Assembly: GCA_002404015.1 (NCBI GenBank)
Contig: DHIW01000098.1
Coordinates: 7,677 to 41,632, forward strand
Length of the DNA: 33,956 bases
Reading direction: 5' to 3'
Source of the DNA: Chloroflexi bacterium UBA4736
GTDB lineage: Bacteria > Chloroflexota > Dormibacteria > Dormibacterales > Dormibacteraceae
The notes under the pieces are model-generated. The model was not told the origin of the DNA. It made no database searches and saw only the letters and a program-made list of their open reading frames with translations. Both the position numbers and the translations under genes were made by a program. Positions 15,700 through 33,269 of this stretch are shown one piece after another (positions within the stretch are counted from its first letter, which is position 1; every line of letters starts with the position of its first letter).

Positions 15700-15705
15700 C
15701 CAATC

Positions 15706-15711
15706 ACAGTA
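15706..15711 (-). promoter_or_regulatory. -10 box TACTGT of leaderless WS/DGAT gene
   Basis: On the minus strand TACTGT ends 6 nt before the GTG at 15699, with no Shine-Dalgarno sequence. It is the main reason for preferring this start. Confidence 0.6.
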
Positions 15712-15827
15712 GCGAGGAATCGGCGCGGCGCGGCGCGGCATGAACTCCTCGGGCCGCTCGTCGTTCGAGACAGGGCGGCACCCCGGGATCGCGTAGGCCA
15801 GGCGGAGTCGTTCACTTCGGGACGGGA

Positions 15828-15870
15828 TATCATCCCTGCAACTCGCGTCACACGAGAGAGAGGAAAGCCA
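15828..15870 (+). promoter_or_regulatory. -10 box TATCAT and Shine-Dalgarno of Liv-type binding protein
   Basis: TATCAT (15828-15833) would give a 5' leader of about 30 nt. The leader carries a purine-rich AGAGAGGA stretch ending 6 nt before the ATG at 15871. No good -35 is visible. This contrasts with the leaderless arrangement of livH downstream. Confidence 0.5.
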
Positions 15871-17127: not shown

Positions 17128-17134
17128 CGACCCA

Positions 17135-17153
17135 GGAAGGGGCGGCCCCTTCC
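17135..17153 (+). terminator. Hairpin after the Liv-type binding-protein gene
   Basis: GGAAGGGG (17135-17142), loop CGG, CCCCTTCC (17146-17153): a perfect 8-bp GC-rich stem 7 nt after the stop codon. No T-tract follows, so it may be a partial terminator or an mRNA 3'-end stabiliser rather than a full stop. Confidence 0.6.
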
Positions 17154-17159
17154 CGCCGA

Positions 17160-17165
17160 TAGACT
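17160..17165 (+). promoter_or_regulatory. -10 box TAGACT of leaderless livH
   Basis: TAGACT ends 6 nt before the GTG at 17172 and lies just after the intergenic hairpin, giving livHMGF its own promoter. Confidence 0.6.
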
Positions 17166-17171
17166 TCCGCC

Positions 17172-19030: not shown

Positions 19031-19761
19031 GGATCTCCACCGAGGGCCTGACCGTTCGCTTCGGCGCCGTTGCGGCGCTGAGCCAGGTCAGCCTGGAGGT
19101 CGCCAGCGGCGAGCGGCGGGGGGTCATCGGTCCCAACGGCGCCGGCAAGACGACGCTCTTCAATGCCATCACGGGCGACCTGGCGCCCAGCGACGGCCGG
19201 GTCCGCCTCGACGGCCGCGACGTCTCCCGCCTGCCGTCCTGGCGGCGGGCTCGGCTGGGCCTCTCCCGCACGTTCCAGCGCTCGACCCTGTTCCCGGAGC
19301 TCACGATCGCGGAGAACCTGGCGCTGGCGGTGCGGAGCCGGGGCGGGGCCTGGCGCTTCTGGCCCTCGCGGCTGGAGCGGGCGGTCCGCCTCGAAGTGGC
19401 TGAGCGGCTGGCGGCCACCGGCCTCGCGGCCGTCGCCCGAAGGCGGGCTGCCGACATCTCGCACGGCGAGCAGCGGGCGCTGGAGATCGAGCTGGCGCTG
19501 GCCGCCCGGCCCCGCGCCCTGCTCCTGGACGAGCCGATGGCCGGGCTCTCGGGGGGCGAGCGCAAGGCGGCGCTGGAGCGCTTGCGCTCGCTGCCGGCCG
19601 AGGTCACGCTCGTGATCGTCGAGCACGACCTCGACGCTGTTTTCGCTATCGCCGGGCGGATCTCCGTCCTCGACCACGGTGTGCTGATCGCCGACGGCTC
19701 CCCGGCCGAGGTCCGCGCCGACCCCCGGGTGCAGGAGGTCTACCTGGGCCATGCCGGCTGA
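19027..19761 (+). CDS. livG: Branched-chain amino-acid type ABC ATPase LivG
   Basis: 244-residue cytoplasmic ATPase. Walker A is GPNGAGKTT, the Q-loop region is LSRTFQRSTLFPELT (typical of LivG), the signature is SHGEQRALE (the family's SHGEQ variant of SGGQ), and Walker B is ALLLDEPMAGL. The H-loop is VIVEHDLDAVF. The C-terminus ends GSPAEVRADPRVQEVYLG, a hallmark of LivG. It forms a heterodimer with LivF to power LivHM. Confidence 0.95.
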   Translation: MRISTEGLTVRFGAVAALSQVSLEVASGERRGVIGPNGAGKTTLFNAITGDLAPSDGRVRLDGRDVSRLPSWRRARLGLSRTFQRSTLFPELTIAENLALAVRSRGGAWRFWPSRLERAVRLEVAERLAATGLAAVARRRAADISHGEQRALEIELALAARPRALLLDEPMAGLSGGERKAALERLRSLPAEVTLVIVEHDLDAVFAIAGRISVLDHGVLIADGSPAEVRADPRVQEVYLGHAG

Positions 19762-20449
19762 GGTTGACCGGCTGGCGGTCCGCGGCCTCACTGCCGGCTA
19801 CGGCGGCATCCAGGCGATCCGCGAGGTCGGGCTGCGGGTGGGGGCCGGCGAGGCGGTCGCGCTCCTGGGCCGAAACGGGGCGGGCAAGACCACCACCCTG
19901 ATGGCCATTGCGGGGGCGCTGCCACGGCGGGCCGGCGAGGTCCTTGTGGACGGCAGCCCGGCCGGGGCGCGCTCGTTCCAGGTGAGCCGGCAGGGCGTCG
20001 CGCTGGTGCCCCAGGGCCGGCGCATCTTCCCCAACCTGACCGTTCAGGAGAACCTGGCACTGGGCGACCGCGGCGGCGACCTGGAGCTGATCCACACGCT
20101 GTTCCCGGTCCTCCGCGAGCGGGCGGCGGCGAAGGGCAGCGCGCTCTCAGGCGGCGAGCAGCAGATGCTGGCGGTCGGGCGGGCCCTCATGACGCGGCCC
20201 CGGGTCCTGCTCATGGACGAGCCCTCCGAGGGGCTGGCGCCGCAGGTCGTGCGGCTGATCGGGGAGCTGATAGGCCGGCTCCGCCGCGAGCGGGACCTCT
20301 CGATCCTGATCGCGGAGCAGAACCTGGCTCTGGCGCTGGAGGTGGCGGACCGGGTGTACGTCCTCGAGCGCGGCGAGATCGTCCACGAGGCAGATGCGGC
20401 TGGGTTCCGCGACGACCGCGAAACTCAGCGCCGCTTCCTTGGGGTGTAA
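19751..20449 (+). CDS. livF: Branched-chain amino-acid type ABC ATPase LivF
   Basis: 232-residue cytoplasmic ATPase. Walker A GRNGAGKTT, Q-loop ALVPQGRRIFPNLTVQENL (the LivF-typical GRRIFP), signature LSGGEQQMLAVGRAL, Walker B VLLMDEPSEGLAP, and H-region ILIAEQNLALALEVADR (the LivF-type EQN in place of EHD). The ATG at 19751 overlaps livG by 11 bp. It is the last gene of the operon; a strong hairpin begins 5 nt after its stop. Confidence 0.95.
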   Translation: MPAEVDRLAVRGLTAGYGGIQAIREVGLRVGAGEAVALLGRNGAGKTTTLMAIAGALPRRAGEVLVDGSPAGARSFQVSRQGVALVPQGRRIFPNLTVQENLALGDRGGDLELIHTLFPVLRERAAAKGSALSGGEQQMLAVGRALMTRPRVLLMDEPSEGLAPQVVRLIGELIGRLRRERDLSILIAEQNLALALEVADRVYVLERGEIVHEADAAGFRDDRETQRRFLGV

Positions 20450-20453
20450 ACGA

Positions 20454-20483
20454 CCTGGAGGGAACCTGGCGGTTCCCTCCAGG
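20454..20483 (+). terminator. Strong 13-bp hairpin, terminator of the liv operon
   Basis: CCTGGAGGGAACC (20454-20466), loop TGGC, GGTTCCCTCCAGG (20471-20483): a perfect 13-bp inverted repeat starting 5 nt after the livF TAA. It is followed by a pyrimidine-richer stretch (CCCTCTTCCATTTGG) rather than a clean U-run. Confidence 0.8.
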
Positions 20484-20585
20484 GGACCCTCTTCCATTTG
20501 GTTTCGGGCGGTGTTGGTGCGCGATTCGATTTTTCAACTCAACCGGCCTGGCGGAGCCAGGGCTTACGACGGCGCTGGGTCTGTG

Positions 20586-20591
20586 TTTAAT
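20586..20591 (+). promoter_or_regulatory. -10-like TTTAAT of the carboxyltransferase gene
   Basis: TTTAAT ends 6 nt before the GTG at 20598. Second position is T instead of A, so it is weaker than the TANNNT boxes elsewhere, but it stands out in GC-rich surroundings and no Shine-Dalgarno sequence is present. Confidence 0.45.
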
Positions 20592-20597
20592 TGGCCG

Positions 20598-22154
20598 GTG
20601 ACCTGGGAGCCCGAGCTTGAGGAGATGCGGCGGCGGGAGGAGCTGGGGCGGCGGATGGGCGGTGAGGAGAGGATCGCGCGGGCCCGGGCGGCCGGGCGGC
20701 TGACCGTCCGCGAGCGCATCGCCCTCCTGCTCGACGACGGCTCGTTCGAGGAGTACGGGGGCCTGGCGGGCTTCGCCCAGTACGAGGGCGCCGAGCTGAC
20801 GGAGTTCCTGCCAGCCAACAGCGTGCTCGGCACCGGCCGGATCGGCGGTCGCCGGGTCGTTGTCTGCGGCGACGACTTCACGGTCCGCGGCGGCGCGGCA
20901 GACGCCGCGATCCACGAGAAGCAGGTCTACGCCGAGCGCATGGCTAACGAGCTGCGCCTGCCGATCGTGCGCCTGGTGGATGGGACTGGAGGCGGCGGCA
21001 GCGTCAAGTCCTACGAGCAGATCGGGCGAACCTACGTGCCGGCCAATCCGGGCTGGGACCTGGTCGTCGACAACCTGGCCAAGGTGCCGGTGGCCGCCGC
21101 CTGTCTGGGACCGGTGGCCGGGCTGGGCGCTGCCCGCGTAGTCAGCGCCCACTTCTCCGTCATGGTCCGCGACACCTCACAGCTGTTCGTGGCCGGGCCC
21201 CCGGTCGTCCTCCACGGCATGCGCCAGGAGGTGAGCAAGGAGGAGCTTGGCGGCTGGGAGATCCATACCAGGCAGTCGGGTGCGGTCGACAACCTGGCGG
21301 AGACCGAGGCCGAGGCGCTCGAGCAGTGCCGCCGCTTCCTGGCCTACCTGCCTCAGAACGTCTGGTCGGTCCCACCCCGCTGCCAGCCCTCCGACGACCC
21401 GGCGCGTGCCGAGGCAGCGCTGCGCTCGGTCGTGCCCCGCAGCCGGCGCCAGCCCTACGACATGCGCCAGGTGCTGGAGCTCGTGTTCGACACCCACTCG
21501 GTCTTCGAGATGGGCCGCGGCTTCGGCGGCTCCGCGATCACCGCCCTGGCCCGGCTGGACGGCTACCCGGTCGGCGTGCTGGCCTCGGACCCCCTGGTCT
21601 ACGGCGGCGGCCTGACCGCCGCCGCGTCGGACAAGGTGGCGCGCTTCGCGGACCTCGCCGACACCTTCCACCTGCCAGTTGTCAACCTGGTCGACCAGCC
21701 CGGCTTCGTGATCGGCGTCGACGCCGAGCGGGCGGGCACGATCCGGCGCGGAGCCCGGGCACTGGCCGCGATCTACCAGGCCTCGGTGCCCTGGGTGTCG
21801 GTGATCGTGCGCAAGGTCTTCGGGGTCGCCGGCGCCGCGCACGGCAACGCCCAGGCGCTGAACCTGCGGTACGCGTGGCCGTCGGCGGATTGGGGATCGC
21901 TCCCAGTCGAGGGCGGCCTCGAGGCGGCGTATCGGCGCGAGCTGGAAGCCTCGGCCGACCCCGAGGCGCTGAAGGCCGAGATCCTCAGCCGGCTGGATGC
22001 GGTGCGCTCGCCCTTCCGGACCGCCGAGGCTTTCGGGGTCGAGAAGATCATCGACCCCGCGGACACCCGGCGCCTGCTCTGCGAGTGGGTCGCAACCGCT
22101 TACGAGCTGCTGCCGTCCCGGCTGGGACCGCACAGCCGGGGACCCCGGCCCTGA
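20598..22154 (+). CDS. Acyl-CoA carboxylase carboxyltransferase (beta) subunit
   Basis: 518-residue carboxyltransferase of the PccB/AccD5/MccB family, which moves CO2 from carboxybiotin to an acyl-CoA such as propionyl- or methylcrotonyl-CoA. Crotonase-like N-half: RLTVRERIALLLDDGSFEEYG (around residues 35-55), then VRLVDGTGGGGSVKSYE. C-half: GGGLTAAASDK, LPVVNLVDQPGFVIG, and a segment SVIVRKVFGVAGAAHGN resembling the acyl-CoA oxyanion region. The GTG at 20598 gives a family-like N-terminus (WEPELEEMRRREELGRRMGG). The frame is open further upstream to 20394, but that part crosses the liv terminator. No biotin carboxylase or BCCP gene is in the window, so its partner must be encoded elsewhere. 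Confidence 0.92.
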   Translation: MTWEPELEEMRRREELGRRMGGEERIARARAAGRLTVRERIALLLDDGSFEEYGGLAGFAQYEGAELTEFLPANSVLGTGRIGGRRVVVCGDDFTVRGGAADAAIHEKQVYAERMANELRLPIVRLVDGTGGGGSVKSYEQIGRTYVPANPGWDLVVDNLAKVPVAAACLGPVAGLGAARVVSAHFSVMVRDTSQLFVAGPPVVLHGMRQEVSKEELGGWEIHTRQSGAVDNLAETEAEALEQCRRFLAYLPQNVWSVPPRCQPSDDPARAEAALRSVVPRSRRQPYDMRQVLELVFDTHSVFEMGRGFGGSAITALARLDGYPVGVLASDPLVYGGGLTAAASDKVARFADLADTFHLPVVNLVDQPGFVIGVDAERAGTIRRGARALAAIYQASVPWVSVIVRKVFGVAGAAHGNAQALNLRYAWPSADWGSLPVEGGLEAAYRRELEASADPEALKAEILSRLDAVRSPFRTAEAFGVEKIIDPADTRRLLCEWVATAYELLPSRLGPHSRGPRP

Positions 22155-22352
22155 CTCGGAACCCGACGCCGATCAGACTATTCGCCTTGTCGGTTACGGG
22201 GTCGGCCACCGTCTGAACCTGGCCGCCGGCCGGCGGCTTCTGTACTCGAAACGGCCGGCCCAGGGGGCCACGAACCGGGAGGCTTGCAATCTGATACCAC
22301 CCCCGTACTATGCGTGATCACTATAGCCAAACTATACATAGGGAGTACCTGA
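22155..22352. other. 198-bp intergenic region with GC palindrome and promoter
   Basis: No gene seen. It contains a perfect 16-nt palindrome GCCGCCGGCCGGCGGC (22222-22237) followed by TTCTG, a possible hairpin terminator for the carboxyltransferase. Downstream is a sigma-70-like promoter (separate entry). The last 50 bp are unusually AT-rich for this window. Confidence 0.5.
22284..22311 (+). promoter_or_regulatory. Sigma-70-like promoter of the secreted EXORDIUM-like protein gene
   Basis: TTGCAA (22284-22289), 16-nt spacer, TACTAT (22306-22311): the only place in the window where I see a good -35 and -10 pair. It gives a leader of about 35 nt with AGGGAG (22340-22345) 7 nt before the TTG start. 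Confidence 0.6.
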
Positions 22353-23354
22353 TTGCGTTATTCTGTCGTTGGTGGTATTCTTGGCGCCGCACTTCTCCTC
22401 GCGGCCGGCCCGTCGAACGCGCTCGCGGGCGACCTGCCGACCACCGTGGGCGCCGCCCACATCCTGTGGGGGCAGGGCCACTACAACTCCGACGCCCAGT
22501 TCAACCAGGACCAGATGATCTACCACGGAGGCGCGGTCGAGACCACCCAGGCGGTCTACCTCGTCTACTGGGGCCCCAAGTGGAAGGACGGCTTCTCGGC
22601 CACGGCCGGCGGTTTCACCTACACCCAGGCCACGGCTCAGCGCTACATCCAGGGCTTCTTCGCCAACGTCGGCGGCAGCGCCTGGAACGGCGTCCAGACC
22701 CAGTACTGCCAGGGCGCCGCGATCGGCGCGGTCAACTGCAACGGCTACCTGGGCGCCCAGTTCGTCCAGAACTCGACCCATGTCCTGAAGGGCGTCTGGG
22801 TTGATCCCAGCCCGGTGCCATCCAACATCGTGACCACCGGACTGGTGGAGAACGAGACCAACGACCCCATCGCCCAGGAGGCCCTGAGGGCGGTGAGCCA
22901 CTTCGGATACAACGTCAACGCGACCTACTTCGTGATGGCCCAGCCGGGTACCACCGCGACCGCCTACGGATCGGTCTACTGCGCGTATCACAGCGAGACC
23001 AGCCACGCCCTCGGGGCCCGCGGCGCCCGCTACGCCTTCATGCCCTACGTCCCCGAGCAGGGCGCGGGCTGCGGCGTGAACTCGGTGAACAAGACCAACG
23101 ACGCGTTCGGCCACGGCTACCTCGACGGTTACAGCATCGTGGCGGGCCACGAGTACGCCGAAGCCGTCACGGACCCTGACAATTACAACGGCACCCAGGA
23201 CGGCTGGAACGACCCCCAGACCAACGAGAACGGCGACAAGTGCGCCTGGTCGGGCCTCCAGAACATAGCGCTGGCCGGCCAGAGCTACGCCGTGCAGCCG
23301 ATGTGGAGCAACGCCGCCAAGGGCGGCAAGGGAGGCTGCGCGGTCAGCCTCTAG
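22353..23354 (+). CDS. Secreted EXORDIUM-like protein with HExxE...TDP motif
   Basis: 333-residue exported protein. Signal peptide at residues 1-25 (hydrophobic GGILGAALLLAAG, likely cleavage after NALA). The YHGGAVETTQAVYLVYWGP segment (57-75) and the C-terminal GHEYAEAVTDPDNYNG (265-280) with NENGDKCAW (291-299) resemble the plant phosphate-induced/EXORDIUM family (PF04674), where HELAE..TNP and a following Cys occur. HExxE could bind zinc, so a metallopeptidase-like role is possible but unproven. Six cysteines in the mature part (119, 129, 210, 240, 297, 329) suggest disulfides. The start is TTG at 22353 with a good Shine-Dalgarno sequence. Monocistronic. Confidence 0.75.
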   Translation: MRYSVVGGILGAALLLAAGPSNALAGDLPTTVGAAHILWGQGHYNSDAQFNQDQMIYHGGAVETTQAVYLVYWGPKWKDGFSATAGGFTYTQATAQRYIQGFFANVGGSAWNGVQTQYCQGAAIGAVNCNGYLGAQFVQNSTHVLKGVWVDPSPVPSNIVTTGLVENETNDPIAQEALRAVSHFGYNVNATYFVMAQPGTTATAYGSVYCAYHSETSHALGARGARYAFMPYVPEQGAGCGVNSVNKTNDAFGHGYLDGYSIVAGHEYAEAVTDPDNYNGTQDGWNDPQTNENGDKCAWSGLQNIALAGQSYAVQPMWSNAAKGGKGGCAVSL

Positions 23355-23385
23355 GCAACTGCCAAGGCGGCATGGCCGGGTGGCT

Positions 23386-23391
23386 TAAGCT
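23386..23391 (+). promoter_or_regulatory. -10 box TAAGCT of leaderless hyuA operon
   Basis: TAAGCT ends 8 nt before the ATG at 23400, no Shine-Dalgarno sequence. It would drive the six-gene operon to 30390. Confidence 0.6.
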
Positions 23392-23399
23392 GCCCGGTT

Positions 23400-25388
23400 A
23401 TGCCTGTCCGCGTCGGGATAGACACCGGGGGGACCTTCACGGATCTCGTGCTGCTCGAGGAATCGGGCCGCGCGACCCAGCTGAAGGTCCCCTCCACGCC
23501 CGACGACCCGGCCCGCGCGCTGGTTGAAGGACTGGCCCGGATCGCCGCCGCCCACACCGTCGCCTCCGTGGCGCACGGCACCACCGTCGCCACCAACGCG
23601 ATGCTCGAGGAGCGCTTCCACTCCCTGGCGCTGCTCACCACCCGGGGCTTCCGGCACGTCCTGGAGATCGCCCGCCAGAGCGTCCCCAGCGGTTACGGGA
23701 ACTCCTATTTCTGGGTCAAGCCGGAGCGGATCGTCCCCCTCGAACGCGTTCGCGAGGTCAGCGAGCGACTGAGCTTCCAGGGCGAGATCCTCATCCCGCT
23801 CGACGAGGCGGACGCCAGGGCCGCGGCCCGCTGGCTCAGGGAGACCGGCATCCGGGCGGTCGGCGTCTGCTTCCTGCACTCCTACGCGAACCCCGTCCAC
23901 GAGCGGCGGATGCGCGACATCCTCCTGGAGGAGCACCCGGACGCGGTCGTCTCCATCTCGAGCGAGGTCTGGCCCGAGTACCGCGAGTACGAGCGCACGG
24001 TGACGACCCTGGTGGACGCCTTCGTCAAGCCGCACGTCACCGGTTATGTGGAGCGCGCGGTGGCCGGCGTCCAGCGCATCGCCCCGGGGGCGCCGCTGCT
24101 GATCATGAAGTCGAACGGCGGCGTGCTGCCGGCGGCCGCGGTAGCCCGCAAGCCCATCTCGACCGCGCTCTCTGGCCCGGCGGCCGGCGCTCTCGGCGCC
24201 TCGTGGCTGGCCCGCCAGGCCGGCTTCGAGCGCGTCATCACCATCGACACCGGGGGCACCTCCACCGACGTCTGCCTGGTCGAGGGGGCCGAGCCCCATC
24301 TCACAAAGGAGGGCCGCATCGGCAGGTTCCCAGTCCGCGTGCCGATGATCGACATCGTCTCGGTCGGGACCGGCGGCGGCTCGATCGCCTGGGTCGGCCC
24401 TGAGGGCGGACTTCGCGTGGGCCCCCGCAGCGCGGGCGCCCTGCCGGGACCGATGGCCTACGGGCGGGGCGGTGAGCTACCGACCGTGACCGACGCCCAC
24501 CTGGTGCTCGGCCGCCTGCCCGAGAGCCTCGCGGGTGGCGAGGTCACCCTCCGTCGCGACCTCGCCCAGGCCGGCGTCGCCCGCATCGGGGAGGGGCTCG
24601 GCCTCAGCCTGGAGCGGGCCGCTGCCGGAATCCTGGAGCTCTCGGCCCACAACCAGGCCAACGCCGTGCTCCAGCTCACCGTGAAGCGGGGCATCGATCC
24701 CAGCGGCGACACCCTGGTCGCCTTCGGCGGGGCCGGCCCGCTGCAGGCCAGCCGCATCGCCCAGCTGCTGGGCCTGCGCACCGTCCTGGTGCCACCCAGC
24801 CCGGGCAACGTGTCCGCCTTCGGCCTGCTTGCCGTCGACCTTAAGGACGACTACGTGCAGACGCTGGTGATGCGTCACGACGCCGTGGACGCAGACGCCG
24901 TGGCACAGCTGTTCAGCGGGCTGGCGGAGCAGGCGCGCAGCTCGCTGAGCGCGCAGGGTGTGGCGGAGGACCGGATGGAGCTCCGGCGCTCGGTCGAAGC
25001 CCGCTACCTGGGCGAGGCGCACGAGATCTCGATTCCGATCGCCGATCGCTTCGTCCCGGCCGCTGCCGAAGCAGCGTTCCACGCCGCCCACGAGCGCCTG
25101 TACGGCTACGCCTACCGGACCGGGGAGGTGGTGGAGTTCGTGAACTGGAAGGTCACCGGCGTGGGCCGGATCGAGCGCCCGCGGCTCGCGCCGGCGCCAC
25201 CGGAAGGTTCCGGCCTGCCCTCCGGCGAGCGCGCCGGCTTCACCCTCTACCGGCGCTCCGACCTGCCCGCCGGCTTCCAGGCGCCCGGGCCCGCGATCGT
25301 CGAGGAGTACGGCTCCACGACCGTCGTCGAGGAGGGCTTTGAGCTGGCGGTGGACCGCTTCGCGAACCTGGTGCTGAGCGCCCGATGA
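23400..25388 (+). CDS. hyuA: Hydantoinase A / oxoprolinase-family ATPase subunit
   Basis: 662-residue cytoplasmic protein of the HyuA/5-oxoprolinase/acetone-carboxylase beta family. The ASKHA-type nucleotide-binding motif DTGGTFTD is at residues 8-15, AHGTTVATNA at 58-67, and a second phosphate motif DTGGTSTD near 283-290 with SGPAAGALGAS before it. The C-terminal domain contains LVAFGGAGPLQASRIAQLLG. With HyuB it would cleave a cyclic amide (hydantoin, N-methylhydantoin or 5-oxoproline type) or carboxylate a ketone, using ATP. The operon's later Rieske oxygenase and methyltransferases do not reveal the substrate. Leaderless ATG; ends in an ATGA overlap with hyuB. Confidence 0.92.
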   Translation: MPVRVGIDTGGTFTDLVLLEESGRATQLKVPSTPDDPARALVEGLARIAAAHTVASVAHGTTVATNAMLEERFHSLALLTTRGFRHVLEIARQSVPSGYGNSYFWVKPERIVPLERVREVSERLSFQGEILIPLDEADARAAARWLRETGIRAVGVCFLHSYANPVHERRMRDILLEEHPDAVVSISSEVWPEYREYERTVTTLVDAFVKPHVTGYVERAVAGVQRIAPGAPLLIMKSNGGVLPAAAVARKPISTALSGPAAGALGASWLARQAGFERVITIDTGGTSTDVCLVEGAEPHLTKEGRIGRFPVRVPMIDIVSVGTGGGSIAWVGPEGGLRVGPRSAGALPGPMAYGRGGELPTVTDAHLVLGRLPESLAGGEVTLRRDLAQAGVARIGEGLGLSLERAAAGILELSAHNQANAVLQLTVKRGIDPSGDTLVAFGGAGPLQASRIAQLLGLRTVLVPPSPGNVSAFGLLAVDLKDDYVQTLVMRHDAVDADAVAQLFSGLAEQARSSLSAQGVAEDRMELRRSVEARYLGEAHEISIPIADRFVPAAAEAAFHAAHERLYGYAYRTGEVVEFVNWKVTGVGRIERPRLAPAPPEGSGLPSGERAGFTLYRRSDLPAGFQAPGPAIVEEYGSTTVVEEGFELAVDRFANLVLSAR

Positions 25389-27154
25389 TCAGCGAGGTCG
25401 ATCCCATCGTCCTTCAGGTCGTGGAGGGCACCCTGCATTCGATCGAGGTCGAGGTCGAGGCGGCCATCGAGCGGACGGCCCGCTCGCCGATGATCCGCGA
25501 CCAGCATGACTACCGGGCGGGCATCCACGACCGCCGCTGCCGCAAGCTGACCGGCCGCTCCTACTCGGCCATGGTCCAGCCGGTGGTGCGCGACTTTCCA
25601 CTCGAGGCGATGCGGGAGGGCGACGTCTACTACCACAACGACGTCTACCTCTCAGAGGGCTCCGTCGGCCACTTGCCCGACCTTACGACCACCGTGCCCG
25701 TCTTTCACGAGGGCCGCGTCGTGGCCTTCGTCCAGGCCTTCGGCCACCACGACGACATCGGCGGCATGGTCCCCGGGTCGATGCCGGCCCACGCCACCAG
25801 CGCCTACCAGGAAGGCCTGATGGTGCCCCCCATCCGGCTCTTCGCGGCGGGGGTCCGCAACGAGGACGTGTATCGCGTCATCGTGCGCAACTCGCGCACC
25901 CCGGAATCGTTCGCCGGCGATCTGGATTCCGAGGTCGCCGCCTGCCAGATGGGCGCGCGCCGCCTGACACGGCTGTTCGAGAGCCACGGCAGCGACGTGA
26001 TCGACGCCTGTTTTGACGCGCTGGTCGAGCGCTGCGCGGACGTCTTCCGGCGCGAGATCCTGCCCCGGATCCCGGACGGCACCTACGAGTTCGAGGACTA
26101 CATCGAGCACGACGGTGTCGAAGAACCCCGCCTGCACGTGCTCAAGATGACCATGACCAAGACGCCGGAGCGGATCGTCTGCGATCTGGCCGGGACCGGC
26201 CCTCAGGCCCGGGGACCGATCAACCACGCCGGTGACTACGCCGACGGGCTCTTTCTCCGGAAGTGGATGGCCTGCATCCTGCGCAACCTGGCGGACTCCC
26301 CGGAGCGCGCGGCCGAGCTGGACATCAACGAGGGCGTCTGCGACATCCTCGAGCTGCGCTTCCCGGCCAAGGGCACGCTCGTCACGCCGGAGTTCCCGGC
26401 GCCCACCAACGCCCGCTCCTTCCTCATCCTGCGCCTGCTCGGCGTCTTCGCCGGCTGCCTGGCCCAGGCCGTCGGCGGCCGGATGCCGGCCGACCAGGAG
26501 ACGATCCGCTACTGGGGCATCCACGGCAGCGACCGGTACGGCCGCTGGTACCTCCTCCGGGAGGTGCTGGGCGGCGGCTCGGGCGGCCGCTTCTACGCGG
26601 ACGGGTCGGACGCCATCCACATCGTCCCGGACTCCAAGAACCTGCCGGCCGAGTTTGCGGAGACCAGGTTCCCGGTGGTCATCGAGAAGCTCGGCCTGGC
26701 CACCGACTCCGGCGGTCCGGGCAAGCGGCGGGGTGGGCTCGGCTACGACAAGCACATCCGGCTGCTCCGCGACGCCTGGTTCGTCTCCACCGCCGACCGC
26801 GGCTTCCTCGGCTGCTACGGTCTGGCCGGAGGCCAGGCCGGGCTGCCCTACCTGGCCTCGGTGGACGGTGCCCCCCTGCCCGGCATGAACGACGACGTGG
26901 CGCTGCCGGCCGGCACCCTGCTCCGCCTGCGCACAACGGGTGGCGGGGGCTGGGGCGATCCCTTCGAGCGGGAGCCGGAGCTGGTCCTGGAAGACGTGCT
27001 GCGCGGCCTGGTCTCCGTGGAGTCGGCCGAGCGCGATTATGGCGTCGTGGTCAGGGACGGCCAGGTCGCCGAGCTGCGCCGCGAGCCTCGACCGCGGCCC
27101 TTCTTCGACCGCGGCCCCGGATACGAGGTCCTGCGCGACCGGACCCCGCCATAG
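25385..27154 (+). CDS. hyuB: Hydantoinase B / oxoprolinase-family subunit
   Basis: 589-residue partner of HyuA (PF02538 family). Near the N-terminus: VDPIVLQVVEGTLHSIEVEVEAA and a RSPMIRDQHDYRAGI segment; then GDVYYHNDVYLSEGSVGHLPD, FGHHDDIGGMVPGSMP (His/Asp-rich metal-binding-like signature), GPQARGPINHAGDYADG, and the hallmark C-terminal TTGGGGWGDPFERE followed by VLEDVLRGLVSVESA. All these are conserved in HyuB. Its ATG overlaps hyuA by 4 bp. Its TAG stop (27152-27154) is followed within 18 nt by the EamA gene. Confidence 0.92.
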   Translation: MISEVDPIVLQVVEGTLHSIEVEVEAAIERTARSPMIRDQHDYRAGIHDRRCRKLTGRSYSAMVQPVVRDFPLEAMREGDVYYHNDVYLSEGSVGHLPDLTTTVPVFHEGRVVAFVQAFGHHDDIGGMVPGSMPAHATSAYQEGLMVPPIRLFAAGVRNEDVYRVIVRNSRTPESFAGDLDSEVAACQMGARRLTRLFESHGSDVIDACFDALVERCADVFRREILPRIPDGTYEFEDYIEHDGVEEPRLHVLKMTMTKTPERIVCDLAGTGPQARGPINHAGDYADGLFLRKWMACILRNLADSPERAAELDINEGVCDILELRFPAKGTLVTPEFPAPTNARSFLILRLLGVFAGCLAQAVGGRMPADQETIRYWGIHGSDRYGRWYLLREVLGGGSGGRFYADGSDAIHIVPDSKNLPAEFAETRFPVVIEKLGLATDSGGPGKRRGGLGYDKHIRLLRDAWFVSTADRGFLGCYGLAGGQAGLPYLASVDGAPLPGMNDDVALPAGTLLRLRTTGGGGWGDPFEREPELVLEDVLRGLVSVESAERDYGVVVRDGQVAELRREPRPRPFFDRGPGYEVLRDRTPP

Positions 27155-27171
27155 CCGGCCCCAGGAGCGCC

Positions 27172-28065
27172 CTGGTCTGGCCGGCGCTGCTCATCGTCTA
27201 CCTCCTCTGGGGGTCCACCTACCTCGGCATCCGGCTCACCGTTCTCACGCTGCCCCCGCTGCTGACGGCCGGGGTCCGGTTCCTGATCGCGGGACTGATC
27301 CTGGTCGCGATCGCGGCGGTCAGGGGCGAGCTTCGGCACTGGCCGGAGCGGAGCCGGGTGGCCGGCGCCGCCGGCGTCGGCCTCCTCCTCGGCACCGGCG
27401 GCAACGGGGGCGTGGTGCTGGCCGAGACCCGGATCCCGAGCGGCATCGCCTCCCTGCTGATCGCGGTCTCGCCCCTGCTCGTGGCACTGATCAGCCTGGC
27501 CCTCTTCAGGGTCGCGATCCGGCGTGTCCAGGCCGCCGGCATGGTGCTCGGCTTCGTGGGCCTGGCGGTCCTCGCCCAGCTGAGCGGTCCTGGCGGCCTG
27601 GACCCGATCGGGCTGGCGTTCGGGTTGGCGGGGGCAGTGCTCTGGTCAGCCGGGTCCGTCTACGGCAGCCGCGCCCAGCTGCCCGAGTCCGACCTGGTCA
27701 ACACCGGCATCCAGCTGCTGGCCGGCGGCCTCGGCCTGTTGCTGGCAGGGCTGATCGCGGGGGAGCCCGCCCGGATGCGGCTCGATCACGCCTCCGCGCA
27801 GTCGGTGGGTGGGCTGATCTACCTGATCGTGTTCGGCTCGGTGATCGCCTACTCCGCATTCACCTGGCTGCTGCGGAACGGGCCGCTGCCGCTCGTCTTC
27901 ACGTACGTCTACGTCAACCCGGTCGTCGCCGTGGGCCTCGGCGCGCTGATCCTGGGCGAGCACATCGGGCTGCGGGAGTTACTGGGCGGGGCCATAATCC
28001 TGGCGGGGGTGGCGACCATTGTGACCGGCCGCGCGATCAGCGAGCGCCTGAGGCCGGCGGCGTGA
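27172..28065 (+). CDS. EamA/DMT-family transporter (probable CTG start)
   Basis: About 297-residue inner-membrane protein with ten predicted helices in two EamA repeats. The first starts VYLLWGSTYLGIRLTVLTLPP with the family's WGSTY, followed by AGVRFLIAGLIL. The second repeat contains GAVLWSAGSVYGSRA and ends FTYVYVNPVVAVGLGALILGEHIGLRELLGGAIILAG, a classic EamA ending (key part YVNPVVAV..LGE). No ATG, GTG or TTG exists before about 27357, which would delete two helices. The best candidate is CTG 27172, with AGGAG at 27163-27167. An ATA at 27151 overlapping the hyuB stop is the alternative. Ends in a GTGA overlap with the next gene. Likely exports or imports a metabolite of this operon. Confidence 0.85.
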   Translation: MVWPALLIVYLLWGSTYLGIRLTVLTLPPLLTAGVRFLIAGLILVAIAAVRGELRHWPERSRVAGAAGVGLLLGTGGNGGVVLAETRIPSGIASLLIAVSPLLVALISLALFRVAIRRVQAAGMVLGFVGLAVLAQLSGPGGLDPIGLAFGLAGAVLWSAGSVYGSRAQLPESDLVNTGIQLLAGGLGLLLAGLIAGEPARMRLDHASAQSVGGLIYLIVFGSVIAYSAFTWLLRNGPLPLVFTYVYVNPVVAVGLGALILGEHIGLRELLGGAIILAGVATIVTGRAISERLRPAA

Positions 28066-28841
28066 GCGAGCAGTGGACCGCGGGCGACCTCTACGAGCCC
28101 TACGTCGGCCGCTGGAGCCGGCTGGTGGCGCGCGAGTTCGTGCCCTGGCTGCGCGTGCGCCGCGACTGTGCGTGGCTCGACGTGGGCTGCGGCACCGGGG
28201 CACTCTGCCAGGCGATCCTCGACCTGGCCTGGCCGGGTTCGGTGTCGGGAGTGGATCCATCGGAGGCGTTCGTCGCCCGGGCGCGCGAGAGGGTCAAGGG
28301 TGCCGACTTCGAGATCGGCACGGCGGTTGACCTGCCCTTCCCGGCCGGTTCGTTCGAGTCGGTGGTGTCGGGCCTGGTCCTGAACTTCGTGCCCGACCAC
28401 TCCCGGATGGCCGAGGAGATGCGGCGGGCGGCCAAGCCGGGCGGGACGGTGGCGCTGTATGTCTGGGACTACGCCGGGGAGATGCAGCTGATGCGGAGGT
28501 TCTGGGACGCCGCCGGGGAGCTCGACCCGGCCGCCCGGGATCTGGACGAGGGCGCCCGGTTTCCGATCTGCAACCCCGAGCGGCTGGCGGCCCTGTTTCG
28601 GGCGGCCGGGCTGCAGGACGTGCAGTCGCGGCCGATCGAGGTCCCCACCGTGTTCCGCGACTTCGACGACTACTGGACCCCCTTTCTCTCCGGGCAGGCG
28701 CCGGCGCCCGCCTACTGCGTCTCCCTCCCGGAGGCGGGCCGCGCGCGCCTTCGCGAGCGGCTGCGGGAGACGCTGCCCTTCGAGACCGACGGCTCGCTGC
28801 GCTTGAAAGCACGGGCCTGGGCCGTGCGGGGCCGAACATGA
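28062..28841 (+). CDS. SAM-dependent methyltransferase, class I
   Basis: 259-residue methyltransferase. SAM-binding motif I is WLDVGCGTGAL (residues 38-48), the acidic end of beta-2 is GVDPSEAFVARA, motif II region is AVDLPFPAGSFESVVSGLVLNFV, and motif III is RAAKPGGTVALYVWDYAG. It resembles the UbiE/COQ5-like Methyltransf_11 group. The GTG at 28062 overlaps the EamA stop and its own stop overlaps the next ATG (ATGA), so it is co-translated with transporter and oxygenase genes. The methyl acceptor is unknown; a small-molecule substrate shared with the Rieske oxygenase is plausible. Confidence 0.88.
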   Translation: MSEQWTAGDLYEPYVGRWSRLVAREFVPWLRVRRDCAWLDVGCGTGALCQAILDLAWPGSVSGVDPSEAFVARARERVKGADFEIGTAVDLPFPAGSFESVVSGLVLNFVPDHSRMAEEMRRAAKPGGTVALYVWDYAGEMQLMRRFWDAAGELDPAARDLDEGARFPICNPERLAALFRAAGLQDVQSRPIEVPTVFRDFDDYWTPFLSGQAPAPAYCVSLPEAGRARLRERLRETLPFETDGSLRLKARAWAVRGRT

Positions 28842-29842
28842 TCGGCGCGCCCGCTCCCGATGCCGTCGCCGCCTACAACGCCGCGCTCGCGCCCTACTGG
28901 CACCCCGTGCTGGCCGCCTCGGAGCTCGGCTCCTCGCCCCACTACGCCGAGCTGCTGGGCCGGCCATTGGTCGTAAGCCGGCTGGACGGCGGTCTGGCCT
29001 GCTTCGACGACGTGTGCCGCCACTTCGGGGCGTCGCTCTCGCTGGGCGAGGTCATCCCGGCCGGGCTGCGCTGCCGCTATCACGGCTGGACGTACGACCG
29101 CGAGGGCCGCTGTGTCGACATCCCGGCCCGGCGCGCGGCCCCCATCCCACGGGAGGCGCGGGTAGGCGCCTACGGTGTCGAGGAGCGGTACGGCCTGGTG
29201 TGGGACTCCCTGGCGGCCGGGCCGGGCGCGGCCATCCCCGAGTTTCCCGAGGCCGCGGACGACCGGTTCCGGGTAACGCCGCTCCGGACCTATCCGGCCT
29301 GGACCGCCAGTGCCCCTCGGATCGTGATGGCCGCGCTGGACGACACCCACTTCCCCTGGGTCCACCCCGGCCTGCTCGGAGACCGCGACCACCCCGAGCC
29401 GCCCGACCACGAGGTGCGCCGGGAGGGGGACGCGCTGGTCTGCAGCTACTCGATACTGCAGCCGGCCAACGAGAGCATCGGCGGCGCGGCGCTGGAGACC
29501 GTCGAGTACCTGAACCGCGTCACGCCGACCACGGTCCGGCTTACAAAGCGCGGGCCGGCCGGCTCCTACGTGCTCTTCCAGGCAATGTGCCCGGTCGCCC
29601 ACAACCGCTCCCTGGTCTTTCTGCAGACCGCCCGGGACTTCGACCTGGAGCCGGCCCGCGACCAGCTGTACACCGACTTCGAGGACGTCATCCAGTCCCA
29701 GGACCGCCCGGTCGTGGAGAGCCAGCGGCCCTGGCTGCTACCGCCGCTGGCATCGCGGCTGATGCTCTACGTGCGGCCCGCGGACCTGCCGCTGATCGCC
29801 TTCCAGCGCTGGCTGGAAGAGCTCGGCATACCTCAGGTCTAG
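28838..29842 (+). CDS. Rieske [2Fe-2S] non-heme iron oxygenase, alpha-subunit type
   Basis: 334-residue oxygenase of the vanillate O-demethylase/pheophorbide a oxygenase-like group. The Rieske ligands are C60-x-H62 (VCRHFGASLSLGE) and C79-x2-H82 (CRYHGWTYD). The mononuclear iron site has DDTHFPWVH with H171 and H176, preceded by the bridging Asp168 (DxxHxxxxH). A distal acidic ligand is probably in EDVIQSQDRPVVESQ. Such enzymes hydroxylate or O/N-demethylate aromatic or heterocyclic substrates and need a reductase, which is not encoded here. It sits between two methyltransferase genes and downstream of a hydantoinase pair, so oxidative demethylation or hydroxylation of an N-heterocycle is a reasonable but unproven guess. 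Confidence 0.9.
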   Translation: MIGAPAPDAVAAYNAALAPYWHPVLAASELGSSPHYAELLGRPLVVSRLDGGLACFDDVCRHFGASLSLGEVIPAGLRCRYHGWTYDREGRCVDIPARRAAPIPREARVGAYGVEERYGLVWDSLAAGPGAAIPEFPEAADDRFRVTPLRTYPAWTASAPRIVMAALDDTHFPWVHPGLLGDRDHPEPPDHEVRREGDALVCSYSILQPANESIGGAALETVEYLNRVTPTTVRLTKRGPAGSYVLFQAMCPVAHNRSLVFLQTARDFDLEPARDQLYTDFEDVIQSQDRPVVESQRPWLLPPLASRLMLYVRPADLPLIAFQRWLEELGIPQV

Positions 29843-29844
29843 AA

Positions 29845-30390
29845 CTGAAGGAGTCCGACCTCGTCCGCCTGGTCCGGGGCGGGGTCGAGGCTGGCGGCCG
29901 AGACTGGGCCGACCTCGGCTCGGGAGACGGCGCCTTCACGCTGGCGCTGGCCTCCCTCCTGGCAGACGGCGCCCGGATCTGGTCGGTCGACCGCGACGCC
30001 GGCTCGATCGAGCGCCAGCGGCGGCGGTTCGGCCAGCGCTATCCCCAGCTGGAGGTCGACTACCGGGTCGCGGATTTCCAGCGGCCGCTTGACCTGCCTG
30101 ACCTGGACGGAATCGTCATGGCCAACTCCCTTCATTTCGTCCGCGATAAGAAGCCGGTTCTCGACCTGGTCCGCGGCCACCTCAAACCCGGGGGACGGCT
30201 GGTCCTCGTTGAGTACAATGCGGACCGCGGCAACCCCTGGGTGCCCCACCCCCTCTCCTACCCGACCTGGGAGCGGCTGGCGGCGGACAGCGGCTTTGCG
30301 GAGACCCGGCTCCTGGAGCGGGTGCCCAGCCGCTTCCTGGGCGAGATCTTCTCGGCGCTCAGCCTTCGTCCCAGGGAATCAACGGCGTGA
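29845..30390 (+). CDS. SAM-dependent methyltransferase, small (probable CTG start)
   Basis: About 181-residue class I methyltransferase. Motif I is WADLGSGDGAFTLALA, the beta-2 acidic region is IWSVDRDAGSIERQ, then DGIVMANSLHFVRDKK and the post-I segment HLKPGGRLVLVEYN. The fold-defining start (KESDLVRLVRGGVEAG) comes directly after the Rieske stop at 29842, and no ATG, GTG or TTG precedes motif I in this frame. CTG 29845, two bases after the stop, is the most likely initiator. The 3' end overlaps the convergent sppA gene by 32 bp. It is the last gene of the plus-strand operon. Confidence 0.78.
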   Translation: MKESDLVRLVRGGVEAGGRDWADLGSGDGAFTLALASLLADGARIWSVDRDAGSIERQRRRFGQRYPQLEVDYRVADFQRPLDLPDLDGIVMANSLHFVRDKKPVLDLVRGHLKPGGRLVLVEYNADRGNPWVPHPLSYPTWERLAADSGFAETRLLERVPSRFLGEIFSALSLRPRESTA

Positions 30391-32026
30391 GCAGCTTGGC
30401 GCCCGGCCCGCCGAGCAGCCGGGCCGACTCCAGGGCGTAGCTCAGGGGCGGGCTGGGCGCCGCCGGAGCCAGCTCGCGCCGGCTTGGCTTCAGCTCGCGG
30501 GCGGGCGCTTCGGGCGGCAGCCCGGCCAGCTCCCGGGCGGCCGCGATCGCCTTCTCGAGCCCGCCCAGCTCGTCGACCAGCCCGCGCTCGAGGGCCTGCC
30601 GCCCGGTCCAAACCCGGCCGCCGGCGATCGTGTCGACTTCCTGGGCCGACTTGCCGCGGGCTTCGGCGACCCGCCCCACGAAGACCTCGTAGCCACGCTC
30701 GATCCCGTCGCGCACCTTGCGCCTCTCCTCCTCGCTCCAGGGCCGGTCCGAGCTGTTGATCGCCGCGTGCTCGCCGCGGGAGATCAGCTCTCGATGGAAA
30801 TCGAGGCGGTCCAGCAGGGGGCCGCTGACCAGCTTCAGGTTGATGACGCCGATCGAGCCGGTCAGGGTGCCCGGCTGGGCGAAGATCCGGCGGGCCGGGG
30901 TGGCCACGTAGTAGCCGCCCGACGCCGCCAGTTGGCCCATCGCCGCCACCACCGGCTTGCGCTCCGCCAACTTGACCAGGGCGGCGGCCATCGCCTCCGA
31001 AGCGCTGCCCGAGCCGCCGCCCGAGTCGATCCAGACCACGACCGCCGCCACTCGCCGGCTGGCCGCCAGGCGGCGCGCCTCCTGGACCACCGTGAGGTCG
31101 CCGGCCCGGTCGTCCAGCAGGAGCGGCACCCGGACCGGCACGGGGCGCGGCGCCCGGCCGCTGCGGCCGTCCACGATGCTGCCCTCGATCCGCAGCACGG
31201 CCACGTAGCGACCCGGGGGGACCGGCGCCGGCCCCCCGACGCGGTTGCGCGCCGACCGCCACGGCGCCACCCCGCCCTTCAGGTAGGTGGGCAGCTCCTC
31301 CTCGCCCAGGACGTTGTCCACCGCGCGCGCGGCGACGGCCTGGAGGTCGGTGTAGGGCGAGCCGTCGACCAGCGCCTGGGCGCCCGCCTCGTCCAGGCCC
31401 CGACCGCCGCCCACCGCCTGCAGCAGCTCGCCGAACTGGGCGTCGATCAGCCATTCCGCCATCTGCCGGGCCTCGGCGGACATCTCGCTGCGGCCGAGGA
31501 CGTCGAACGCCGTCTTGAACGGCGTGATCTGGACCACGTCCGCCGCCAACCCGGCCCGGTTGAGCGCGTCGGCCAGGAACAGGTAGCGGGTGCTGTAGCC
31601 GAGCGCGAGTACCTCGCCCGCCTGCTGGATGAGGATCTCGTCGGCAGCGCACGCCACGTAGTACGTGGAGGGGGTGTAGAGGGCCGACCAGCAGACGACG
31701 CGCTTGCCGGCCTGCCGCAGGTCCGCCATCAGCTCGCGGAACGTCTCCGCCGATGCCGCGGACAGCGCCAGAGGGCGAAGGTGGATGACGACGCCTTTGA
31801 CGCGGGCGTCCGCGGCGATCGCGGCGAACGCCGCGGCCAGGTCGCGCAGCGTCATCGCCGGCCGGCCCAGGAAGGGTCGCTGCCAGAAGGGACCCGAGGG
31901 CGGCGCCAGCTGCGGGAAAGCCTCGTCGACGAGGAACGAGACGTACTCGGGCGGGGGCCGGAAGCGGCGGCGGATGCCCGCCAGCGCCCAGAGCAGCCAG
32001 CGCACCCCGAAGCTCAGGTACGCCAC
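30359..32026 (-). CDS. sppA: Signal peptide peptidase SppA-like S49 protease
   Basis: 555-residue membrane-associated serine protease of family S49, two-domain SppA type. The putative catalytic lysine is Lys171 in TPFKTAFD (first domain) and the nucleophile Ser369 in AASGGYY (second domain), with IDSGGGSGSASEAMAAAL and TLTGSIGVI around it as in SppA. An N-terminal hydrophobic segment (residues 1-18, VRWLLWALAG) could anchor it. It cleaves residual signal peptides or membrane-associated peptides. The GTG at 32026 is 2 nt after the stop of the thioredoxin-fold selenoprotein candidate, so the two genes form an operon. The 3' end overlaps the opposing methyltransferase by 32 bp. Confidence 0.9.
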   Translation of the reverse strand: MAYLSFGVRWLLWALAGIRRRFRPPPEYVSFLVDEAFPQLAPPSGPFWQRPFLGRPAMTLRDLAAAFAAIAADARVKGVVIHLRPLALSAASAETFRELMADLRQAGKRVVCWSALYTPSTYYVACAADEILIQQAGEVLALGYSTRYLFLADALNRAGLAADVVQITPFKTAFDVLGRSEMSAEARQMAEWLIDAQFGELLQAVGGGRGLDEAGAQALVDGSPYTDLQAVAARAVDNVLGEEELPTYLKGGVAPWRSARNRVGGPAPVPPGRYVAVLRIEGSIVDGRSGRAPRPVPVRVPLLLDDRAGDLTVVQEARRLAASRRVAAVVVWIDSGGGSGSASEAMAAALVKLAERKPVVAAMGQLAASGGYYVATPARRIFAQPGTLTGSIGVINLKLVSGPLLDRLDFHRELISRGEHAAINSSDRPWSEEERRKVRDGIERGYEVFVGRVAEARGKSAQEVDTIAGGRVWTGRQALERGLVDELGGLEKAIAAARELAGLPPEAPARELKPSRRELAPAAPSPPLSYALESARLLGGPGAKLLTPLIPWDEG

Positions 32027-32028
32027 GG

Positions 32029-33066
32029 CTACATGTCCAGCGGCTGGTAGTAGTTCTCGGCGCCGACCTGGCGGACGTCGTCCAACCAGTTGCCGGGATA
32101 GACCGCGGTCGGACCCTGGGCCCGATCGACGAGCGCCCAGGCCTGGCGCTTGTACGTCCAGTTGTCCGGCTGCAGGCGGTGGGCCTCCCGGAAGTGGGCC
32201 CGGGCCCCGCCCTCCAGGCCGGCCCGCTGCAGGTGCTGGCCGAGCTCGAAGTGGGCGGCGGCTCGCGCCGTCTCCGGCGAGCGCTGCCGGGAGCGCGCCA
32301 GCACCTGCTCGGGAGTAAGCGCGTAGCGAGAGGCGGCACCCTGCCGGGCCCAGTCGCGTAGGGCCTCCAGGTAGCGCTCCGGCTGGATGCGGATCTTGCG
32401 CGCCTCCAGCATCACCTCGCGCAGCCGGCCCTCGGCCGGCAGCTCCCCGCCCGAGAACCGGGCGACGCCCGGAAAGGCCGTCTCGGGCGGCCGCACGATC
32501 CGGCCGGCCTCGTCGATCCAGATCCCGCTGGGCACATTGACCACCCCGTACAGCTCATCGAGAAGGTGCGCCTCGTCGATCAGCGAGGGGTGCTGAGGGG
32601 CGGCGGCCTCGATCCAGCGCGCCGCCTCGCCGGCGCCTCGGGTCTCCAGCGCGACCGTCACCACCTCGACGCCCTGGGGGTGGAGCTCCTCCCGAACCTG
32701 CTGCCACACGGGCAGATCCAGCCGGCAGCCTCACCAGGGGGCCCATGCGACGACCAGGACTTTCTGGCCGCGCAGCCCGCTCAGGGTGTGGGGAGCGCCG
32801 CGCCAGTCGGGCAACGTGAAGTCGGGCGCCTCGGCGCTGGCCAGGACCCGCCCCGATTCGGGCCCCAGCGCCCACAGCCCGGCGGCCTCGTCCGCGACGA
32901 GCGGCATGCCGAGCCGCTCGGCCAGCATGCGAACGTCGAAGAGCATTTCGTCGGGCGCCGGGAGCGGGACGCACAGGTCGCCCTTGCAGGCCCCTTCCGG
33001 CTTGATCTCCCAGCCGGATCGGCGCTCGAACTCGGCCGGGCCGACCAGCAAGCGATCCAGGATCAT
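32029..33066 (-). CDS. Candidate selenoprotein: redoxin/TlpA-like thioredoxin-fold protein with in-frame TGA (Sec112) and TPR-like C-terminus
   Basis: 345 codons in one frame with a single TGA at 32733-32731 (residue 112). Domains: N-terminal about 80 residues with EGACKGDLCVPLP (Cys pair); then thioredoxin fold from EAPDFTLPDWRG (about 86) with VLVVAWAPW-U-GCRLDLPVW, that is Sec in the redox-active Cys slot and Cys114 two residues later, the cis-Pro-like segment NVPSGIWIDEAGRIV, and a helical TPR-like end (HFELGQHLQRAGLEGGARAHF). Reading continues in frame on both sides with family-like sequence, so a simple pseudogene or start elsewhere is less likely. A bSECIS-like hairpin follows the TGA. 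The ATG at 33066 is chosen because upstream extension would run across the divergent zinc-ribbon gene. Co-transcribed with sppA. Alternative: point-mutated pseudogene or sequencing error. Confidence 0.78.
32680..32733 (-). promoter_or_regulatory. Putative Sec-UGA codon with bSECIS-like hairpin
   Basis: On the minus strand, counting from the base after TGA (32731-32733): positions 24-27 pair with 48-51 and 29-31 pair with 45-47, with base 28 (C) bulged. The 13-nt apical loop AGGUUCGGGAGGA has G at its second position. UGA-to-loop distance is 31 nt. A mutually exclusive stem pairs positions 2-7 with 26-31. Folded by hand only. Confidence 0.5.
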
Positions 33067-33101: not shown

Positions 33102-33269
33102 ATGACAGCCGAGCTGGAGCTGGAACCTGAGCTTCCCGTCCCCTGCCCGTCCTGCGGGCAGCCGCCCGAGAGCTGGACGGAGAACGGCGGCAAGGGCTAC
33201 GCCGCGTCGGAAGGCAGGTACTGCTCGCAGGCCTGCGTCGCGCGAGACCAGGCCGACAACTCCGACTAG
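33102..33269 (+). CDS. Small zinc-ribbon/TRASH-like protein
   Basis: 55-residue protein with four cysteines in CPSC (C15, C18) and YCSQAC (C41, C45). This spacing, with an aromatic residue before the second pair, resembles TRASH/MYM-type zinc-binding ribbons. An acidic N-terminus (ELELEPELP) precedes the first pair. A strong Shine-Dalgarno sequence supports the ATG at 33102. Function unknown; it is divergent from the selenoprotein candidate and 47 bp upstream of a membrane-protein gene. Confidence 0.75.
   Translation: MTAELELEPELPVPCPSCGQPPESWTENGGKGYAASEGRYCSQACVARDQADNSD

Follow-up and report, generated by a model that had tools for sequence, protein, structure and literature searches.

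The window, that is the whole stretch of 33,956 nt analysed here, carries on its minus strand a frame of 345 residues (translation from 33066 to 32029) that contains a single internal stop, a TGA at codon 112 lying between VVAWAPW and GCRLDLPVWQ, and that closes with a terminal TAG. An earlier reading made from the letters only (hereafter the sequence-only reading) had described this frame as open except for the TGA, and our translation confirms it. The same reading had held that TGA is used as an ordinary stop elsewhere in the window. Consistently, TGA terminates 12 of the 21 chosen window ORFs, sppA and the hyuA-like gene included, the 21 ORFs comprising also the tail of the selenoprotein gene itself, which ends in TAG. 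TGA is therefore a normal stop in the source organism. The break at codon 112 is common to a second record, since protein P0001 (226 aa, 99% identical, from another record) starts shortly past the TGA, with the GTG of residue 120 as its first codon. The features of the locus are collected in Table 1.

Table 1. Features of the probable selenoprotein locus and of related loci. Coordinates are those of the window, except for the last row, where each is preceded by the locus to which it refers.
Feature	Position	Strand	Basis or remark
Probable WAxxUGC selenoprotein CDS	32029..33066	-	345 residues with Sec at position 112, ending in TAG; translation and domain/family matches
In-frame TGA, most likely read as selenocysteine (U112)	32731..32733	-	translation and comparison with related loci
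Cys27 codon (first Cys of CKGDLC)	32986..32988	-	conserved in alignments
Cys32 codon (second Cys of CKGDLC)	32971..32973	-	conserved in alignments
Redoxin/AhpC-TSA (ResA-like) thioredoxin-fold domain, residues 78-191	32494..32835	-	Pfam matches, alignment, structure comparison
Cys114 codon (U-G-C motif), proposed resolving Cys	32725..32727	-	invariant in family alignment
Putative bacterial SECIS hairpin	32700..32716	-	20 nt from the TGA to the apical loop CGUGU (32706-32710); family comparison
TPR-like helical C-terminal part, residues 269-302	32161..32262	-	PF07719 20.3 bits (cut-off 27); helices in model
S49 peptidase (SppA-like), directly downstream	30359..32026	-	starts 2 nt past the selenoprotein stop
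SnoaL/LEH-like genes of Cys-type loci	L015:415-852, L026:5529-5996, L027/L029/L031/L032/L033:5561-6004, L030:1805-2215		

The read-through protein matches the NCBIfam model NF041054 (WAxxUGC_long) from end to end, residues 1-345 being aligned to positions 1-354 of the model with 523.9 bits and an E-value of 2.2e-157. This model, an equivalog named 'ResA-like WAxxUGC motif-containing protein', has a curated cut-off of 300 bits. Its W-A-x-x-U/C-G-C motif is present in the window protein as WAPW-TGA-GC, where WASW or WAPY are common in relatives. With the match over the whole length and the motif alike, no essential difference was seen between the window protein and NF041054. Since the name of the model already contains the Sec motif, the family is known: it is catalogued as predicted selenoproteins, to which the window gene adds one member. 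The sequence-only reading had considered the architecture unusual; the layout is that of NF041054 and its rarity had been overestimated.

With the TGA read as U, the AhpC-TSA (PF00578) and Redoxin (PF08534) domains continue through codon 112. These two domains and NF041054 span the codon, and homologues have Cys in that column, in agreement with the earlier claims that the placement of the TGA is beyond chance and that it occupies the redox Cys position of a thioredoxin-fold protein, the domain being ResA/TlpA-like. The motif that had been put forward, W-x-x-W-C-x-C-R, was right as to the redox position and has to be corrected to W-x-x-W-U-G-C. In the alignment, the window protein exhibits a UxC, one residue shorter than the CxxC that defines the active site of ResA/TlpA/DsbE thiol-disulfide oxidoreductases (3gl3, 1st9, 4nmu). 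It also differs from these enzymes by additional N- and C-terminal parts, and no signal peptide was evident by inspection. The AlphaFold2 model of the read-through protein has a mean pLDDT of 92.9, and its thioredoxin domain was found to have a ResA-like fold by structure comparison, the VIA-align comparison covering mainly residues 70-247. As to the TPR-like C-terminal extension noted earlier, its Pfam score stays under the cut-off, and helices are present in the model (Table 1). Modelled alone (AlphaFold2 pLDDT of 86.3), the N-terminal domain retrieved no PDB match at E <= 0.001, a result that does not establish a new fold.

Protein homologues were collected as the best 120 of 7998 scored candidates, using the read-through protein as query. 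Most of these 120 proteins are full-length and contain W-x-x-W-C-G-C. Among the matches listed, P0001, P0046, P0071, P0072 and P0076 are pieces of 210-226 residues that start downstream of the stop (at residue 120 in four cases, later in the fifth), and they include the closest relatives among the matches listed (80-99% identity over the piece). A contig scan of genomes returned 74 related loci, distributed among Chloroflexota and Actinomycetota, plus a small number of proteobacterial genomes and metagenome bins. The 6 loci that end short of codon 112 (L068-L073) were left out of the codon counts, as was the locus of Rubrobacter marinus (L038), which is frameshifted around the codon with a TGA visible in another frame. 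The 67 remaining loci and the window provided 75 plus-strand copies, with TGA in 61, TAG in 1, TGC in 10 and TGT in 3. One TGA row, corresponding to a 29.6%-identical paralogue in L009, was set aside. So was a further TGA copy of L014, which lies on the minus strand, has 51% identity and carries the same hairpin. The counted copies are thus 61 Sec-type, window included (60 TGA and 1 TAG), and 13 Cys-type, 10 of the latter being tandem pairs in five Frankia and hence not independent.

The sequence-only reading had expected supportive relatives to present either Cys or TGA at codon 112, and stops at random other positions in the case of a pseudogene. Besides the window, 60 counted copies have TGA or TAG at this codon and 13 have Cys, and no second stop was detected in any matched stretch of the related loci; L040, L064 and L066 appear frameshifted elsewhere. 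A search through 400 genomes of the phylum to which the relative G001 belongs, limited to five scored candidates per genome, gave 13 matches with an E-value under 1e-60, every one of them with exactly one TGA; the loci counted above already include 5 of these 13 genomes.

Some loci exhibit further copies. The second paralogue of L009 (6454-7095), 29.6% identical, has an in-frame TGA between GSW and RCR, and the first gene lies about 3.3 kb upstream of it. Three Sec-type copies are found in L014:3143-8100, two in tandem on the plus strand and one on the minus strand, and the five Frankia loci L027, L029 and L031-L033 have two Cys-type copies each, about 2.5 kb apart. The search of the 400 genomes also returned several weaker matches with one TGA, in frames of about 260-320 aa. 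In the complete genome of Rubrobacter marinus (L038:5900-7150), the TGA stretch is in a different frame from the rest and is therefore flanked by frameshifts, which may reflect either real decay or an assembly error.

A putative SECIS hairpin follows the codon throughout the Sec-type copies. In the family it occupies nucleotides 18-34 counted from the first codon base, with a loop NG[G/U]NU located 20 nt after the codon. The inner five pairs and the loop NG[G/U] are present in 61 of 61 Sec copies versus 0 of 13 Cys copies. All six pairs form in 60 of the 61 Sec copies, the exception being the window, in which the outermost pair (32716/32700) is a U-C and the other 5 of the 6 consensus pairs form. 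When applied to the other codons of the Sec genes, the same stem-loop test was satisfied at 30 of 17210. In one Cys locus, L015, all six pairs of the stem are retained and close a different loop (GCUGU). A looser test, accepting any spacing of 16-37 nt and six or more pairs, proves little alone; it was satisfied at 60 of 61 Sec sites, and also at 2 of the 13 Cys sites and at 12% of the remaining codons. RNAalifold returned the same six pairs unprompted. Covariation is modest, with three cells changed on both sides, in 2 of the 6 pairs, and none of 500 shuffles scored as high.

Folded by itself, the window hairpin did no better than shuffled sequence, and this held for each of four stretches around the TGA; a 46-nt fold of the window (-17 kcal/mol) is shifted in register from the consensus, with a loop that also starts with G-U. 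Rfam retrieved nothing above gathering scores in the window; the five matches obtained around the TGA with a limit of E <= 10 scored low, far under the gathering scores. The rules for bacterial SECIS elements, as they appear in excerpts of PMC13188914, are a loop of 3-9 nt with a G in its first two positions, mostly followed by G/U, a stem of 4-16 bp, a loop located 16-37 nt after the UGA and an MFE <= -7.5. The window, with its 5-nt loop CGUGU, 5 bp and a spacing of 20 nt, agrees with these rules.

The hairpin spans codons 117-123, so that residue 120 falls in its loop. This residue is Val in 32 and Gly in 29 of the 61 Sec genes, and Leu in 12 and Ile in 1 of the 13 Cys copies. In a set of 122 full-length proteins, almost all of them Cys-type, the same position holds Gly in 57, Leu in 35, Ile in 11, Val in 9 and another residue in 10. 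Because Val or Gly occurs in 66 of these 122 proteins, the constraint on residue 120 is weaker than the 13 Cys loci suggest, and it takes the form of other residues being absent from Sec genes only. Codon choice at positions 118-120 is skewed as the hairpin demands: the Leu118 codon CTC is never used (38% in Sec genes overall), the Pro119 codon CCG is used in 1 of 58 cases (45% overall) and the Val120 codon GTC in 2 of 32 (47% overall), the binomial figures for this skew being too generous owing to the kinship of the genes.

The search for the selenium machinery covered the genomes of 18 of the 59 Sec-type loci and 6 of the 8 Cys-type ones, with 14 further genomes as controls. Among the relatives, selB was over the cut-off in 17 of 18 Sec-type versus 0 of 6 Cys-type genomes, and selD in 17 of 18 versus 2 of 6; SelD also serves tRNA selenouridine. 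For selA, 13 of the 17 genomes of TGA-type relatives were over the cut-off. The corresponding numbers in the 14 controls were 1 for selA, 2 for selB and 2 for selD. The Rfam model RF01852 alone is a poor test of tRNA-Sec because it matches all genomes and controls (with loose E-values, a signal in all 14 control genomes, over the cut-off in 5), and we therefore relied on ARAGORN, which confirmed a tRNA-Sec in 14 of the 18 Sec-type genomes, 13 with anticodon UCA and 1 with CUA. The best candidate of G017 is a tRNA-Ser, and G007, G011 and G015 have no strong candidate. In G007, a Sec-type relative, tRNA-Sec was thus unconfirmed and none of selA, selB and selD was over the cut-off.

The CUA anticodon was found in Geodermatophilus sp. 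TF02-6 (G018, the genome of L047), in a tRNA-Sec (L091) which ARAGORN labels Pyl and which adjoins selD and selB on contig C18. The sole TAG copy of the family, at L047:6334-6336, belongs to this same genome. At the level of sequence, such a matched codon/anticodon swap ranks among the strongest arguments for codon 112 meaning Sec. Excerpts of PMC5330540 report UAG-Sec in Geodermatophilaceae, with a Blastococcus AhpC selenoprotein using TAG; the Geodermatophilus TAG copy of the present family was not found as a published UAG-Sec example in the literature searched.

From these data, the TGA at codon 112 most likely encodes selenocysteine and the gene a selenoprotein of NF041054, with a probability that we put at roughly 0.93, a figure covering the selenoprotein part and excluding the redox steps considered below. 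The candidate selenoprotein of the sequence-only reading is in this respect sustained by relatives with TGA or Cys at exactly codon 112, by the conserved SECIS hairpin and by the TAG/CUA swap. SelB with Sec-tRNA-Sec, recruited by the downstream hairpin, would insert Sec at UGA codon 112, and synthesis would run to residue 345; the support by comparison covers the codon, the hairpin, the sel genes of relatives and the fold.

The neighbourhood of the gene was analysed by ORF clustering. No cluster was present in more than 15 related loci, and no neighbour shared by the Sec-type loci emerged. The largest neighbour clusters were uninformative: they correspond to widespread families, labelled by eye as SDR, crotonase and acyl-CoA dehydrogenase, or to shadow ORFs of closely related Frankia. 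In the window, the SppA-like gene is perhaps co-transcribed with the selenoprotein gene. None of the neighbour clusters reported for related loci is an SppA cluster. P0072 and P0153 each lie on a contig of 2516 bases, a coincidence that may hint at an identical gene pair in a close relative. Among the 120 relatives listed for the SppA-like protein, two have 71-73% identity, and those bearing a taxon name come from Dormibacteraeota, Anaerolineae and Acetothermia; against 61 relatives of G001, 17 had a match, with at most 43% identity. A Chloroflexota-like host is conjectural. The one informative cluster concerns the Cys-type loci, all 8 of which carry a SnoaL/LEH-like gene beside the Cys-type gene. 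It is located at most 10 nt upstream in 7 of them, with a 4-nt overlap in six, and directly downstream in L030. Both PF07858 (LEH) and PF12680 (SnoaL_2) were over the cut-off in the three tested copies (L015, L026 and L027). At E <= 1e-3, such a gene was absent from the Sec-type loci and the window, within flanks of up to 6 kb, shorter in many. Since 5 of the 8 SnoaL-bearing loci are Frankia, this adjacency represents about four lineages. The SnoaL/LEH-like protein may be a candidate partner of the selenium-free Cys form.

The N-terminal CxxxxC pair is conserved to the same degree as the UGC. Of 74 locus proteins, 73 have both C27 and C32, and the remaining one is frameshifted in that part. 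Only 2 of the 122 full-length proteins are without Cys at 112 (P0092 and P0104), and these also lack C27 and C32, so that the co-loss of the three cysteines is that of two related proteins; the pair is otherwise missing only in one truncated and one frameshifted record. We infer a thiol/selenol oxidoreductase or a peroxidase that would be soluble and cytosolic. The attack on a peroxide or a disulfide would come from U112, at the N-terminal edge of the thioredoxin-fold helix 113-131, and C114, two residues further on, would make a selenenylsulfide with U112. The CxxxxC pair and/or thioredoxin would then reduce the U112-C114 selenenylsulfide, and the TPR-like tail would hold a partner. A relay from CxxxxC to UGC is suggested by the conservation of the pair and by its co-loss in the two related proteins.

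A broader proposal combines a self-contained selenol relay, in which CxxxxC reduces U112-C114, with help from the SnoaL/LEH-like protein for the Cys form and with a shaping of residue 120 by the SECIS; we consider it tentative and, as a whole, rather unlikely. Were it true, a single polypeptide would unite a peroxidase/reductase centre and its own reductant shuttle, the Cys version, having given up selenium, would need help and be coupled to the SnoaL/LEH-like partner gene, and residue 120 would be confined to Val/Gly under UGA and freer after the Sec-to-Cys exchange. We give even odds to another explanation, according to which the protein is a real selenoprotein whose CxxxxC is unrelated to UGC and has a metal-binding or fold role, thioredoxin alone regenerating the enzyme. 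The N-terminal domain model, for which the PDB offered nothing at E <= 0.001 to point to a role, is compatible with this explanation, against which stand the retention of C27 and C32 in all but the frameshifted locus protein and their loss together with C112 in P0092 and P0104.

Two further explanations compete with selenocysteine at codon 112 itself. A pseudogene or sequencing error, that is a nonsense change in a Cys-type gene, would fit the existence of Cys homologues and the fact that gene finders record only the downstream 226-aa piece in the near-identical record (P0001), and is made very unlikely by conservation: 59 other counted copies also have TGA as codon 112, a second stop is absent from every matched stretch, a 99% identical record has the same break and the SECIS hairpin is conserved. 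Just as improbable is the reading of UGA as an ordinary amino acid, by code reassignment or generic readthrough, which the frame remaining open beyond the TGA would fit and which is opposed by the termination of 12 of 21 chosen window ORFs with TGA, by the sel machinery of most relatives, by Cys as the counterpart residue in homologues and by the sole TAG copy lying in a genome whose tRNA-Sec reads UAG.

Selenoproteins of this kind were already encountered in a 2008 ocean survey, with 46 'Prx-like (UGC-containing)' sequences that were commoner in non-marine samples (PMC2398784), and were later named 'UGC-containing Prx-like protein' (PMC9312934) and 'UGC-containing TlpA disulfide reductase family protein' (PMC13188914). 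As presented in excerpts of these three papers, they have a UGC motif in a Prx/TlpA-like fold, as here; an N-terminal CxxxxC and a TPR-like tail such as those of the window protein are not described for UGC-containing Prx-like proteins in these excerpts. Their likening to NF041054 is by name and motif, not by accession. The term 'WAxxUGC' occurs in no paper of the literature searched, in which, with few subscription papers covered, no experimental study of the family was found. The present case indicates that the reading of raw sequence can detect a likely selenoprotein which gene finders shorten. With a single site that occurs as TGA, as TAG or as Cys, the family offers a natural experiment on Sec-to-Cys exchange and on the recoding of the Sec codon, and would also be useful for studying the constraint exerted by the SECIS on the amino acids it overlaps.

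Other genes of the window were observed in passing. A 55-residue zinc-ribbon-like ORF (CPSCG...CSQAC) at 33102-33269 on the plus strand is divergent from the selenoprotein gene, and a purine-rich GGAGGAGG stretch immediately precedes its ATG. Further away on the plus strand, 15268-20449 and 20394-29842 contain genes of a Urt/Liv-like ABC transporter and, after these, genes for a carboxyltransferase and two hydantoinase-like subunits, the same stretch (15268-29842) also encoding a methyltransferase-domain protein and a Rieske oxygenase. This gene group looks like an uptake and catabolism cluster.
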